Shown here piece after piece: positions 49,231 through 59,969 of a stretch of 64,000 bases of DNA (positions are counted from its first letter, which is position 1; the number at the start of each line of letters is the position of its first letter). Both the position numbers and the translations under genes were made by a program. The stretch covers positions 45,966 to 109,965 of IMG/VR virus record IMGVR_UViG_3300036985_006427. One strand, given 5' to 3'. The notes under the pieces were generated by a model. It was not told the DNA's origin. It was given only the letters and a program-made list of their open reading frames with translations, and did no database searches. The DNA is from a virus.

Positions 49231-50043
49231 TTAATCTTTGACGGTTTCGGGTGTCAAGAAAGGTTGATCTACTGTTCCGTCATTGTACTTGTGGTATTGA
49301 GCAAGCCTGTCTTGTTCTTTGTACATTGAAAGTCGCATTTTTTCCATTTCGAGGCCGTAAGACCTTGCAACCTCTTGGTTGGTTATCAAATATGTCATCC
49401 ATCCGGTAAAACTTGACTTGCTGTCCTGAAAGCGCTGTACGCGCTGTTCGCGCGTTGCTTTCATGTCCTTTAGCATTGAACTCTTTTTGGTTTGAAGCTC
49501 TCGGTAGTCCTTGTTGAGCGATTCCTGAGAGGCTTTGAGCGAGGCGATCTGACTTGCCATGTTGAACAACACGTCTTTGTCGATTTGATCCGGGTCTCGT
49601 TGACGCTCAGCAAAGATCAGGGTTTCTAAAACAGATATTTGTTCTAGGTTTTCTTTGTTGCCCTTCAAAGAGCGGTTCATTAGTAATTCTAATTTTATAA
49701 GGTCAACAACCTGCAGCTCTTCGGTTGGAATAACATCATCTTGAAATTGAGATATAATTCTGGACCAATGATATTGAAATAGCTTCAATTCATCTTCAGT
49801 GAATTGTTGTTTTAGCTCAACGAAGTATGGTCTAAAAGCAAGGTCATATTTTGCTTGGTCTTCAGTTGATATAGAGTCAAACCAACTGGGTTTTTCTATT
49901 TCGTTTTTTGCAACTTTGCGTTTTATGAAGTCTAGAACGCTATCTGGATTTCTGTCTAGAGACAGAGCTAATTTTTGATAACCAAAGTTAACGTTTTCTT
50001 TTATGAACGTTTCTTCTGGTTTACTGATGCGTCCCGTCTTCAT
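49231..50043 (-). CDS. Probable terminase small subunit
   Basis: 270 residues from MKTGRISKPEETF (ATG at 50043 after AGGAG; overlaps the upstream gene by 23 bases). Residues about 5-45 form a helix-turn-helix-like segment (ENVNFGYQKLALSLDRNPDSVLDFI), followed by long helical/coiled-coil stretches (ASQIASLKASQESLNKDYRELQTKK). DNA-binding N-terminus plus oligomerising helices upstream of packaging genes fit a small terminase. A transcription regulator is an alternative. Confidence 0.55.
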   Translation of the reverse strand: MKTGRISKPEETFIKENVNFGYQKLALSLDRNPDSVLDFIKRKVAKNEIEKPSWFDSISTEDQAKYDLAFRPYFVELKQQFTEDELKLFQYHWSRIISQFQDDVIPTEELQVVDLIKLELLMNRSLKGNKENLEQISVLETLIFAERQRDPDQIDKDVLFNMASQIASLKASQESLNKDYRELQTKKSSMLKDMKATREQRVQRFQDSKSSFTGWMTYLITNQEVARSYGLEMEKMRLSMYKEQDRLAQYHKYNDGTVDQPFLTPETVKD

Positions 50044-50539
50044 AGTAACCGTGCTCCTGTAGTATATTTTTAATAATTTCAACGACCTCTTCGCGGCGTT
50101 GTTTTGATATATAAATATCATTGGATATTTTAAGATAATCCATTCGAACACTCGCCGGAATATGACGGTCGAGGGCAACTATCATGTCCTTTACGTCAAG
50201 ATCGTCATACGACTCACCATCAGTATGGTCCACAAGCTTTTCTTCATGATCCAACTGAGCTGGCTGAGCTAGTTTTTTTCGTTGCTCATTTGAGTTTCCT
50301 ATAAAGTAATTGTCACGCATAAAGGTTTTTAGTCTGTTGGATAGGTTTACACTCAGAAAATTCTCAAGGGGTCTGCCTTCTTCGTAACGATTCATGGCTT
50401 CGAGACAAATAATAAAAGACTCTTGGACAATATCATCTTTTGCGTAACCGTAAAACACGTATTTAGGGGCTATGCGTTCGCAAACAATGTTTATTTGTTC
50501 TACGACCTCTTCCTCTGTCATTCCATTTGGTACTCTCAT
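50021..50539 (-). CDS. Sigma-70 region 2-like late transcription factor
   Basis: 172 residues. Residues about 15-75 match sigma region 2 (CERIAPKYVFYGYAKDDIVQESFIICLEAMNRYEEGRPLENFLSVNLSNRLKTFMRDN): the DDIVQES core-binding helix and an aromatic/Arg segment for -10 melting. Region 4 is not evident; the C-terminal ~50 residues are helical. It may direct host RNA polymerase to late promoters, as T4 gp55 does. It is encoded inside the late module, so it could act as a feed-forward activator. Confidence 0.72.
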   Translation of the reverse strand: MRVPNGMTEEEVVEQINIVCERIAPKYVFYGYAKDDIVQESFIICLEAMNRYEEGRPLENFLSVNLSNRLKTFMRDNYFIGNSNEQRKKLAQPAQLDHEEKLVDHTDGESYDDLDVKDMIVALDRHIPASVRMDYLKISNDIYISKQRREEVVEIIKNILQEHGYYEDGTHQ

Positions 50540-57385: not shown

Positions 57386-57427
57386 TCTCACAAATAATAT
57401 ATATTGAGTTGCAAACACGCACACAAT

Positions 57428-57448
57428 AAAAAAGGGCCCCCCTTTTTT
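57428..57448 (+). terminator. Tract hairpin 4 (A6-G3-C6-T6)
   Basis: C-loop orientation, as in hairpin 1. Starts a roughly 120-base cassette that is repeated at 58644-58764. Confidence 0.75.
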
Positions 57449-57547
57449 ATTTCGCATTGTTGCACAACAAAATAAATTTTGCAATCTCCAAAAAAAAACA
57501 ATTAATCACACTCTTGCCATTGACTAAAAGAGTCGATATGTTATAAT
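57449..57547 (+). repeat. Terminator-promoter cassette, copy 1
   Basis: 99 bases after the tract hairpin through the -10 box are about 90% identical to 58666-58764. It contains a GCATTGTTGC-like inverted element, an AT-rich part and the promoter. Confidence 0.85.
57520..57547 (+). promoter_or_regulatory. Promoter for 57610 gene
   Basis: TTGACT, 16 bases, TATAAT (-10 at 57542-57547). Confidence 0.8.
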
Positions 57548-57609
57548 ACGGAAGTGAAGTGTGGATGTGACGAATGGTTTGGTTTTCTTCTTGTTCGGGA
57601 TTTTTGATC

Positions 57610-57786
57610 ATGCAGATTCTAGTTGGTTCATCGTATCCGGGAAATTTCATCACTCGTCCAGAGCCTGTAAACTCGGCCACTTGTGAGACAATCGCTCACC
57701 ATGTCACCGAGGGTGTTGGTGATCATGAGCAGTTCATGACACGCAAACAGAAAACCATCCGAGATCTGATGTTGGCAGGATTCTAG
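57610..57786 (+). CDS. 58-residue protein
   Basis: MQILVGSSYPGNFITRPEPV ... IRDLMLAGF. TCGGGATTTTTGATC precedes ATG, matching the GGGTTTTT-type leader of other genes here; an upstream ATG at 57574 is also open. Unknown function. Confidence 0.55.
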   Translation: MQILVGSSYPGNFITRPEPVNSATCETIAHHVTEGVGDHEQFMTRKQKTIRDLMLAGF

Positions 57787-57839: not shown

Positions 57840-58166
57840 ATGAGAACAAGCATCAAAACCATGGTTAAAACGAACACAACAACGGGCCAGCGTCACGCAT
57901 CGCTGACTTTCTGGACACGCGATGAAAAGGGAAACCTACGTGGAATTTGGGTATCTGGCAGCACATTCTCGAACTCTGGAGACTCGATTCTTGGAATTCG
58001 GATGACTGGTCATCAGGGGGTTTCAAGCGAAATCTTCAATAGTCTTGACAATTCTGTCGAATTCGGCACAATCCATGGAATGGTCAAAGCACGGATTTCC
58101 GGAAATCGGATTTTTGTCAAAATTCCCCACGGAGTGGCTATGGATCACGAGCCACTTCCTGTATAA
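57840..58166 (+). CDS. Unknown 108-residue protein, leaderless
   Basis: MRTSIKTMVKTNTTTGQRHA ... DHEPLPV. The ATG is seven bases after the -10 box, where transcription should start, and no ribosome site exists. Beta-rich (ASLTFWTRDEKGNLRGIWV, FGTIHGMVKARISGNRIFV). No family recognised. Confidence 0.65.
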   Translation: MRTSIKTMVKTNTTTGQRHASLTFWTRDEKGNLRGIWVSGSTFSNSGDSILGIRMTGHQGVSSEIFNSLDNSVEFGTIHGMVKARISGNRIFVKIPHGVAMDHEPLPV

Positions 58167-58173
58167 TACCAAC

Positions 58174-58199
58174 ACAGCCGGACGATCTCCGGCAAAACC
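58174..58199 (+). repeat. 5' leader hairpin repeat, copy 1
   Basis: 26 bases with hairpin GCCGGA-CGATC-TCCGGC, exactly repeated at 58932-58957. Here a TATAAT at 58162-58167 would place the transcript start at the first base of the repeat, so the mRNA begins with a stable hairpin. The matching -35 is not clear. Confidence 0.75.
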
Positions 58200-58643: not shown

Positions 58644-58665
58644 AAAAAAAGGGGGGCCCTTTTTT
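58644..58665 (+). terminator. Tract hairpin 5 (A7-G6-C3-T6)
   Basis: Same family; start of cassette copy 2, 1,216 bases from hairpin 4. Confidence 0.8.
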
Positions 58666-58764
58666 ATTTCGCATTGTTGAACAACAAAATAAATTTTGCA
58701 ATCTCCGAAAAAAAACAATTAATCACACTGTTGCAGTTGACTAAAAGTGTCGATATATTATAAT
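58666..58764 (+). repeat. Terminator-promoter cassette, copy 2
   Basis: About 90% identical to 57449-57547 up to the -10 box, then unrelated: copy 1 drives a protein gene, copy 2 drives a tRNA. Confidence 0.85.
58737..58764 (+). promoter_or_regulatory. Promoter of tRNA-Met
   Basis: TTGACT, 16 bases, TATAAT (-10 at 58759-58764). Confidence 0.8.
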
Positions 58765-58784
58765 GAGGGTGTGAGGTATGAACG

Positions 58785-58857
58785 GGGCTGGTAGCTTAAC
58801 GGTCAAAGCAGCGAACTCATAATTCGTTGATTGCGAGTTCGAATCTCGCCCGGCCCA
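58785..58857 (+). tRNA. tRNA-Met (CAT)
   Basis: 73 bases. Acceptor GGGCTGG / CCGGCCC, D arm GCTTAACGGTCAAAGC, anticodon stem GCGAA / TTCGT with loop CTCATAA (anticodon CAT), T arm GCGAG-TTCGAAT-CTCGC, discriminator A. CCA is not encoded. It could be elongator Met or a lysidine-type Ile tRNA. Confidence 0.92.
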
Positions 58858-58891: not shown

Positions 58892-58919
58892 TTGACATCG
58901 TCCTTCTATCTGATATAAT
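58892..58919 (+). promoter_or_regulatory. Promoter of the 58926 transcript
   Basis: TTGACA, 16 bases, TATAAT, nearly the same as the promoter at 57806-57833. Six bases follow to an ATG that opens a 13-codon frame only. Confidence 0.8.
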
Positions 58920-58931
58920 ACACTCATGAGA

Positions 58932-58957
58932 ACAGCCGGACGATCTCCGGCAAAACC
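58932..58957 (+). repeat. 5' leader hairpin repeat, copy 2
   Basis: Identical to 58174-58199; lies six bases inside the predicted transcript start of the candidate RNA. Confidence 0.8.
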
Positions 58958-59134
58958 GGCCATATAGACGGAAGCCATGTGCGACCGCGTGACCGGCGTT
59001 ATCTCTCGGGACTATGGAAGACCGAGACACCTAGCAAAAGAAAATCTTCGGGAGTCGATGCCTTTGGGCTAATTTGCTGAGCTTCCCAGTCTCAAGACTT
59101 GACATGGGAATAGGCAGGCTTAAAGTCTCTATTT

Positions 59135-59208
59135 AGCGGACTTACCTAGCGGTCCAACAGGGCTGACGCGAAGGGTTTGGCTTAGTGGTTCGATTCCACA
59201 GTCCGCTT
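59135..59208 (+). tRNA. tRNA-like element (possibly Phe GAA), degenerate
   Basis: Acceptor AGCGGAC / GTCCGCT (7 perfect pairs), D-loop-like AGCGGTCCAAC and T loop GTGG-TTCGATT-CCAC are clear. The anticodon arm is poor: the best fold, CTGAC / GTTTG with one mismatch, has loop GCGAAGG, so GAA would be the anticodon but U33 is missing. It may be a decayed tRNA or a tRNA-shaped part of the larger RNA. Confidence 0.35.
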
Positions 59209-59507
59209 TCTTGCAAGACGGTTTATGGTCATTGGTTTCTCATTCTAAGAGTTGCACCGTAAGCAACATAAAGAAGCGACGTCAACAGGTTTCGGAAACT
59301 CACTGACGAAAACTTGAGTTTGTCCCGTAGAATTGTTTGGTTCAGCAGGTTCAGTTCTTCAACGTTGTAAGAAATGAGAACCGCCGGTTTCGAAGAAATA
59401 AAGTGTCACGTCCGAACGGTCAACAGCCGATTCCTCCAGCGATTGGAGTGGACCTAGGGGGAAACCTGTGAACACGCCGAACGCCATAATTATTTTGTTT
59501 CCAGCTC

Positions 59508-59535
59508 TTGACAATCAAAATGAGTCTGCTATAAT
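59508..59535 (+). promoter_or_regulatory. Promoter of tRNA-Glu
   Basis: TTGACA, 16 bases, TATAAT (-10 at 59530-59535). Confidence 0.82.
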
Positions 59536-59545
59536 CTGTGAACAA

Positions 59546-59617
59546 GGCCCCATAGTTGTACGGTTATGACGCCGCACTTTCACTGCGGAGGAGTGGGATC
59601 GTCCCCCACTGGGGTCA
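59546..59617 (+). tRNA. tRNA-Glu (TTC) with atypical T loop
   Basis: 72 bases. Acceptor GGCCCCA / TGGGGTC, D arm GTTGTACGGTTATGAC, anticodon stem CCGCA / TGCGG with loop CTTTCAC (anticodon TTC). T stem GTGGG / CCCAC, loop ATCGTCC instead of TTCRANY, so the usual U54 and A58 are absent. Discriminator A, CCA not encoded. Confidence 0.82.
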
Positions 59618-59752: not shown

Positions 59753-59766
59753 CTTTAAAAAAGCCA

Positions 59767-59880
59767 GCCTATTACATTGGTTCGAATCCAATACGTTAGA
59801 ACGATATATCGTTCGTCGCAAGATGACCGGATGATTCCGGTTGGGCGTTCGTCTAGTGGTCAGGACGATAGGCATTTTTT
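59767..59880 (+). other. Inverted-order tRNA halves (permuted tRNA candidate)
   Basis: A 3' half comes first: GCCTAT, TAC, T arm ATTGG-TTCGAAT-CCAAT, acceptor strand ACGTTAG and A (59767-59800). After 41 bases with two hairpins comes a 5' half: TGGGCGT, TC, D arm GTCTAGTGGTCAGGAC, G, ATAGGC (59842-59873). ATAGGC/GCCTAT is a perfect 6-bp anticodon stem; the acceptor pairs 6 of 7 with three wobbles. The 5' half then runs straight into tract hairpin 6. Two decayed tRNAs remain an alternative. Confidence 0.3.
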
Positions 59881-59881
59881 T

Positions 59882-59905
59882 AAAAAAAAGGGGGGGGCCT
59901 TTTTT
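59882..59905 (+). terminator. Tract hairpin 6 (A8-G8-C2-T6)
   Basis: Weaker stem than the others (only two C). It ends the tRNA-Glu unit. Confidence 0.7.
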
Positions 59906-59969
59906 ATTTCGAGTTATTTAACGTTAACGATTCACGATAAAAATAAATAAAAAATTCCCTGACCAGCTC

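Follow-up and report, generated by a model that had tools for sequence, protein, structure and literature searches.

A likely new and conserved phage non-coding RNA with a tRNA-like head, encoded between two tRNA genes

A promoter-rich tRNA cluster and the left end of the reported interval

The window, by which we mean the whole 64,000-nucleotide stretch of DNA that was analysed, covers positions 45966-109965 of a virus record that is 109,965 bases long (IMGVR_UViG_3300036985_006427). The locus is surrounded by short plus-strand genes in series, many of which carry promoters of the form TTGACA-16-TATAAT; between 56.5 and 61 kb, both strands included, there are 20 promoter-like sites against 6.0 expected. 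Capsid and terminase relatives of the phage are very numerous in IMG/VR, and no sequence resembling 57.5-60.5 kb was found in annotated phage genomes. The features of the locus are the following.

58785-58857, + strand: tRNA-Met(CAT), an ordinary cloverleaf (ARAGORN; Rfam tRNA, 72.2 bits)
58892-58919, + strand: sigma-70-type promoter TTGACA-16-TATAAT with a TG extension
58926-59131, + strand: 5′ segment of the reported interval; a 13-codon frame, then a copied hairpin at 58932-58957 (repeat D7)
59099-59126, + strand: inner promoter-like site TTGACA-16-TAAAGT (10/12, consensus match only), ending 8 nt before the tRNA-like domain
59133-59490, + strand: RNA 1, a conserved structured RNA with a tRNA-like 5′ domain and a multi-helix 3′ domain (conservation, consensus fold, both-side changes)
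59135-59207, + strand: tRNA-like domain, first 73 nt, with compensated acceptor and T arm
59175-59181, + strand: GTTTGGC, immediately upstream of the T arm; complementary to 59476-59482 and proposed as the 5′ strand of a long-range helix
59210-59490, + strand: 3′ domain, with helices TTGC/GCAA, GCAGGTTC/GAACCGC, CTCCA/TGGAG, a basal helix and others
59476-59482, + strand: GCCGAAC, which would supply the 3′ strand of the long-range helix; GCCA follows, where conservation ends
59508-59535, + strand: promoter TTGACA-16-TATAAT (12/12) for tRNA-Glu and RNA 2
59546-59617, + strand: tRNA-Glu(TTC), with a non-canonical T loop
59761-59880, + strand: RNA 2, a circularly permuted tRNA cloverleaf (MFE fold, descriptor scan, conservation)
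59882-59908, + strand: A8G8CCT6 terminator-like repeat (family D4) ending the tRNA/RNA cluster

The original prediction described a large, ornate non-coding RNA of about 570 bases (58926-59500) that lies between two tRNAs, starts at a near-consensus promoter, contains no gene and shares its first hairpin exactly with an upstream mRNA leader. Much of this description was borne out. The tRNA-Met and tRNA-Glu genes lie on either side, the promoter at 58892-58919 matches the consensus at 12 of 12 positions, and the hairpin ACAGCCGGACGATCTCCGGCAAAACC is identical at 58174-58199 and 58932-58957; reading frames in the interval reach 44-51 aa at most, and stops interrupt all frames of 59133-59490. The supposed wealth of hairpins fared less well: the minimum free energy of 58926-59500 is -173 kcal/mol, compared with -171.7 +/- 7.3 for shuffled sequences (z -0.18), and since the whole interval folds with the same energy as its shuffles, we do not take hairpin richness as evidence.

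The extent of the RNA also had to be revised, to the roughly 355 conserved nucleotides at 59133-59490, and so did its start. The promoter at 58892-58919 is part of a 63-nt repeated cassette (the promoter plus ATGAGAACA), of which there are three copies, at 57786, 58872 and 59950. Two protein ORFs, at 57840 and 60004, begin with this cassette (...TATAATACACTCATGAGAACA) as well; the frame that it opens at 58926 has only 13 codons. Because this combination of promoter and start codon is shared with protein ORFs, the left end at 58926 has the look of a duplicated gene start, apparently leaderless, to which a copied hairpin has been joined, and not of the start of an RNA gene. No counterpart of 58926-59131 was found in L004 (the relative described below), in L007 or among 160 loci.

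Several other observations concern the same promoters and repeats. At six starts (57840, 58926, 60004, 60199, 60537 and 62776) an ATG lies exactly 6 nt past the -10 box of a promoter with a 16-nt spacer, and these genes are apparently leaderless. A direct repeat of 136 nt (88%) at 57428-57563 and 58645-58780 contains terminator-like and promoter sequences, and terminators of the type A7G6C3T6 recur at 57420, 58637 and 59877. A possible phage sigma factor is encoded at 50021-50539 on the minus strand, where a weak match to sigma-70 region 2 falls below the Pfam cut-off.

Conservation and structure of RNA 1

The block at 59132-59490 is 80-82% identical to L004:284-693, in the phage contig IMGVR_UViG_3300042556_001864. 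In the window the block lies between tRNAs; in this relative it is flanked by two protein genes and is 5.3 kb away from the tRNAs. As it keeps its borders while its neighbours differ, we consider that the block behaves, or moves, as a unit. Upstream of the unit the relative shows no evident promoter, and an ORF with a Shine-Dalgarno sequence begins about 15-20 nt past its end. The presence of stops in every frame, together with frame-breaking 1-nt gaps, excludes a protein on either strand.

Folding the two-sequence alignment with RNAalifold gave a consensus energy of -77.95 kcal/mol, compared with -57.4 +/- 4.4 for 100 column shuffles that preserved gaps and conservation classes (z -4.65; none of the 100 as good). 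Scored separately, the tRNA-like part and the 3′ domain reached z -2.95 and z -3.7, respectively; the single-sequence minimum free energy is unremarkable. We checked the resulting structure by hand: its 81 pairs are all standard in both sequences, and in ten of them both sides have changed. When the partners are slid by 1-3 columns, the both-side changes drop to 0-1 and the paired cells to 32-42%, from 100%. We stress that five of the ten both-side changes fall in Helix 7 and depend on the placement of one 1-nt gap, and that the covariation is shallow because the searched collections hold only two sequences. As judged from these two sequences, the comparison shows a secondary structure that is conserved with compensatory changes.

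Within the tRNA-like domain, the acceptor consists of 8 bp (59135-59142/59200-59207), which read AGCGGACT/AGTCCGCT in the window and AGCAAACT/AGTTTGCT in the relative. Two of its pairs are compensated (GG/CC to AA/TT), which lends the acceptor stem independent support. The T arm at 59185-59199 (GTGG-TTCGATT-CCAC) is canonical and invariant in both sequences, and the domain has, as tRNAs do, a 7-8 bp acceptor and a T arm with a TTCRANN loop. Between them is a strongly conserved stretch that contains a D-like hairpin (59150-59165) and the D-loop-like sequence CCTAGCGGTCCAACAGG. By reading of the sequence, 59135-59207 has no canonical anticodon stem with a 7-nt loop and U33; a 5-bp alternative, GCTGA/TTGGC, encloses a loop of 10 nt. 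Neither ARAGORN nor Rfam calls a tRNA here, the window copy scoring 19.4 bits with the tRNA-Sec model, whose cut-off is 47. The relative's homologue (L004:287-361) is called tRNA-Cys by ARAGORN and fails the Rfam tRNA cut-off.

The basal helix of the 3′ domain, GTGTCAC/GTGAACAC (59403-59409/59468-59475), directly abuts the proposed long-range helix, through which the 3′ end of RNA 1 may, on the evidence of complementarity, pair back onto the 'anticodon' strand. Both substitutions that occur in this helix preserve it (C-G to U-A and G-C to G-U). A comparable long-range helix arose in 13 of 60 shuffled alignments and is not significant alone; we therefore offer the crossing helix as a proposal and not as a result.

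The original prediction had suggested ROOL or GOLLD as the identity of the RNA and named covariance-model searches as one of the checks. Searches with the Rfam ROOL, GOLLD and HEARO models gave zero matches by cmscan at E<=1 (57.5-60.5 kb) and at E<=10 (58.9-59.52 kb), where no family apart from the weak tRNA-Sec match was found; tmRNA, group I/II introns and RNase P likewise gave no match at E<=10, nor did ARAGORN call a tmRNA at RNA 1. Direct searches of the whole virus record with RF02032 (GOLLD) and RF03087 (ROOL) were empty, as they were in every control genome. By the tests run here, RNA 1 is neither ROOL nor GOLLD. What stands of the prediction is a structured phage non-coding RNA beside tRNAs, upheld by conservation and compensatory changes; the proposed ROOL, GOLLD or HEARO identity is not supported, with no model matched and a conserved unit of the wrong size.

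Two covariance models that we built, R1 for the 3′ domain and R2 for the tRNA-like part, found with confidence only the two known copies in 30 related records, and DNA patterns found no further copies in viral contigs and 84,980 species genomes. Weak R2 matches were seen in G005 and G007 (13.9 and 17.1 bits). A 40-nt match to MT836101 in the phage database (E 7e-4) was treated as chance, as it is antisense within an apparently ParB-like frame and scores 12 bits with the model, and the pattern matches L168-L172 were dropped because they score nothing with R1. Taken together, RNA 1 is likely a conserved and apparently new phage non-coding RNA with a tRNA-like head.

tRNA-Glu and a permuted tRNA downstream

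The tRNA-Glu gene departs from the TTCRANN consensus in its T loop, which reads ATCGTCC in the window and AGCATTA in the relative (L004:6002-6073). In the relative's copy the D loop is, in addition, without GG; the two copies share the same anticodon loop, and their stems co-vary.

In RNA 2, the parts of a tRNA follow one another in the order anticodon 3′ strand, T arm, closed acceptor, D arm and anticodon 5′ strand. Its two halves are identical at 34/34 and 31/32 nt to L004:6141-6213 in the same relative, with a middle that varies freely: ACAC-TTC-GTGT closes the acceptor in the relative, and ACG...CGT around two extra hairpins does so in the window. A descriptor scan of 2.2 Mb of related sequence returned only these two copies, one tandem tRNA pair and one weak chance match. 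Matches to the permuted-tRNA pattern at L161-L164 and L190, and R3 matches in G032 and in the contig of L005, proved to be ordinary or tandem tRNAs.

A similar arrangement is known from YrlA, a bacterial Y RNA that can be superposed on tRNA once a circular permutation is allowed for (PMC11472068) and whose ends build a large stem (PMC8394870). RNA 2 resembles YrlA (RF02553) in its permuted T-acceptor-D order and in ending in a stem at the anticodon position. RF02553 gave no match to the RNA 2 segment at E<=10, and the Ro60 gene (TROVE, PF05731) was not found in the 110-kb record, which is possibly incomplete, the control being positive in Deinobacterium; a host Ro60 is possible. RNA 2 is therefore built like a Y RNA, and not shown to be one.

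Permuted tRNA genes of red and green algae and of Thermofilum also encode the 3′ half before the 5′ half; a 2014 review lists such genes in algae and an archaeon and none for bacteria (PMC4033280). These mature via a BHB motif and a circular intermediate, whereas the acceptor of RNA 2 is closed by a short hairpin, and neither RtcB nor RNA ligase families, which could ligate a permuted tRNA, were found in the virus record. As a separate observation, the relative carries a Type-P5 twister ribozyme (L004:7737-7795, 57.1 bits) near a GP88-like gene; none was found in the window.

Proposed function, alternatives and relation to known RNAs

We hypothesize, with moderate confidence, that 59133-59490 is a trans-acting, tRNA-mimicking phage non-coding RNA that couples a tRNA-like domain with a compact 3′ domain; by analogy, its role would probably be that of a decoy, or of a scaffold, for a factor that binds tRNA. 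RNA 1 would be transcribed from the inner promoter at 59099, from the strong promoter at 58892, or from both, and host RNase P would trim its 5′ end at the acceptor. With its 3′ end paired to the strand before the T arm, in place of an anticodon stem, the RNA could display the elbow and acceptor shape of a tRNA without a decoding anticodon and so occupy a tRNA-binding protein. Candidate targets would be a defence nuclease that cleaves tRNA, an enzyme of maturation or modification, or a degradation machine. Y RNAs tether PNPase. For the tRNA-like domain of YrlA, competitive inhibition of an anticodon nuclease has been suggested (PMC7790460). A phage RNA of the shape described might act in either of these ways, and the permuted tRNA mimic at 59761-59880, in the same tRNA cluster, would fit the same purpose.

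Four other explanations have to be weighed. The sequences could be functionless remnants, left behind as tRNA genes and copied promoters decay in a quickly changing tRNA island, as the copied promoter and hairpin cassettes, the likeness of the tRNA-like domain to a worn tRNA-Cys and the out-of-order tRNA halves at 59761-59880 would suggest; we consider this unlikely given that RNA 1 is as conserved as the neighbouring tRNA-Glu (78%), that the permuted halves are so nearly identical, and that RNA 1 has compensatory changes and a significant consensus fold. It is similarly improbable that RNA 1 is only a processing spacer, in one long pre-tRNA running from tRNA-Met to tRNA-Glu, with the tRNA-like domain as a cutting site for RNase P or RNase E. 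Minihelices of acceptor and T arm are RNase P substrates, and no terminator was found between 58860 and 59508; however, tRNA-Glu has its own 12/12 promoter, the relative's unit lies among protein genes far from the tRNAs, and a conserved 280-nt 3′ domain would be superfluous in a spacer.

A highly diverged RNA of the GOLLD or ROOL type, self-assembling into a cage with the tRNA-like part as linker, would account for the position among phage tRNAs, the unconserved 5′ part and the tRNA-like element ahead of a conserved 3′ part. We regard it as quite unlikely, because RF02032 and RF03087 remain unmatched even at relaxed thresholds, the conserved unit is about 355 nt, and in the relative a reading frame, and nothing RNA-like, precedes the tRNA-like domain. 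Least probable, in our judgement, is a cis-acting element (a riboswitch, attenuator or translation element) for the next gene: the Shine-Dalgarno-bearing ORF just after the block in the relative would suit it, but the downstream gene is not conserved, being a protein gene there and, in the window, a tRNA-Glu with its own promoter.

If the tRNA-mimicking RNA that we favour is real, it would represent a new family of structured phage RNA whose larger fold incorporates a tRNA-like domain, and it would lie beside a permuted tRNA mimic. Defences that cleave tRNAs are widespread; as a counter-defence, RNA decoys directed at them would be little explored. More tentatively, and with considerable doubt, we suggest that the phage may carry a whole set of RNAs that mislead host factors acting on tRNA: the new-family 355-nt RNA with its crossing helix, an elbow-poor tRNA-Glu, and a Y-RNA-like permuted tRNA without a Ro60 of its own.

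Among known RNAs, tmRNA joins a tRNA-like domain to a pseudoknot-rich body, and RNA 1 would resemble it in having an acceptor, a T arm and a long-range helix that replaces the anticodon stem; the order of its helix strands is, however, no permutation of that of tmRNA, and no resume ORF was seen. ROOL (RF03087) is likewise a large, phage-borne non-coding RNA found near tRNA islands, but RNA 1 does not match its model, which at 574 positions is far above the conserved unit of RNA 1, and we know of no tRNA-like domain in ROOL. GOLLD (RF02032) has a variable 5′ part, a conserved 3′ region and sometimes tRNAs in the linker (PMC12286853). RNA 1 does not match it in sequence or structure and differs from it in its conserved length of ~355 nt and in that its tRNA-like part opens the conserved unit; yet both are phage-borne, lie among phage tRNAs and join a tRNA-like element to a conserved 3′ part behind a variable 5′ part, and GOLLD remains the nearest analogue of RNA 1 in layout.
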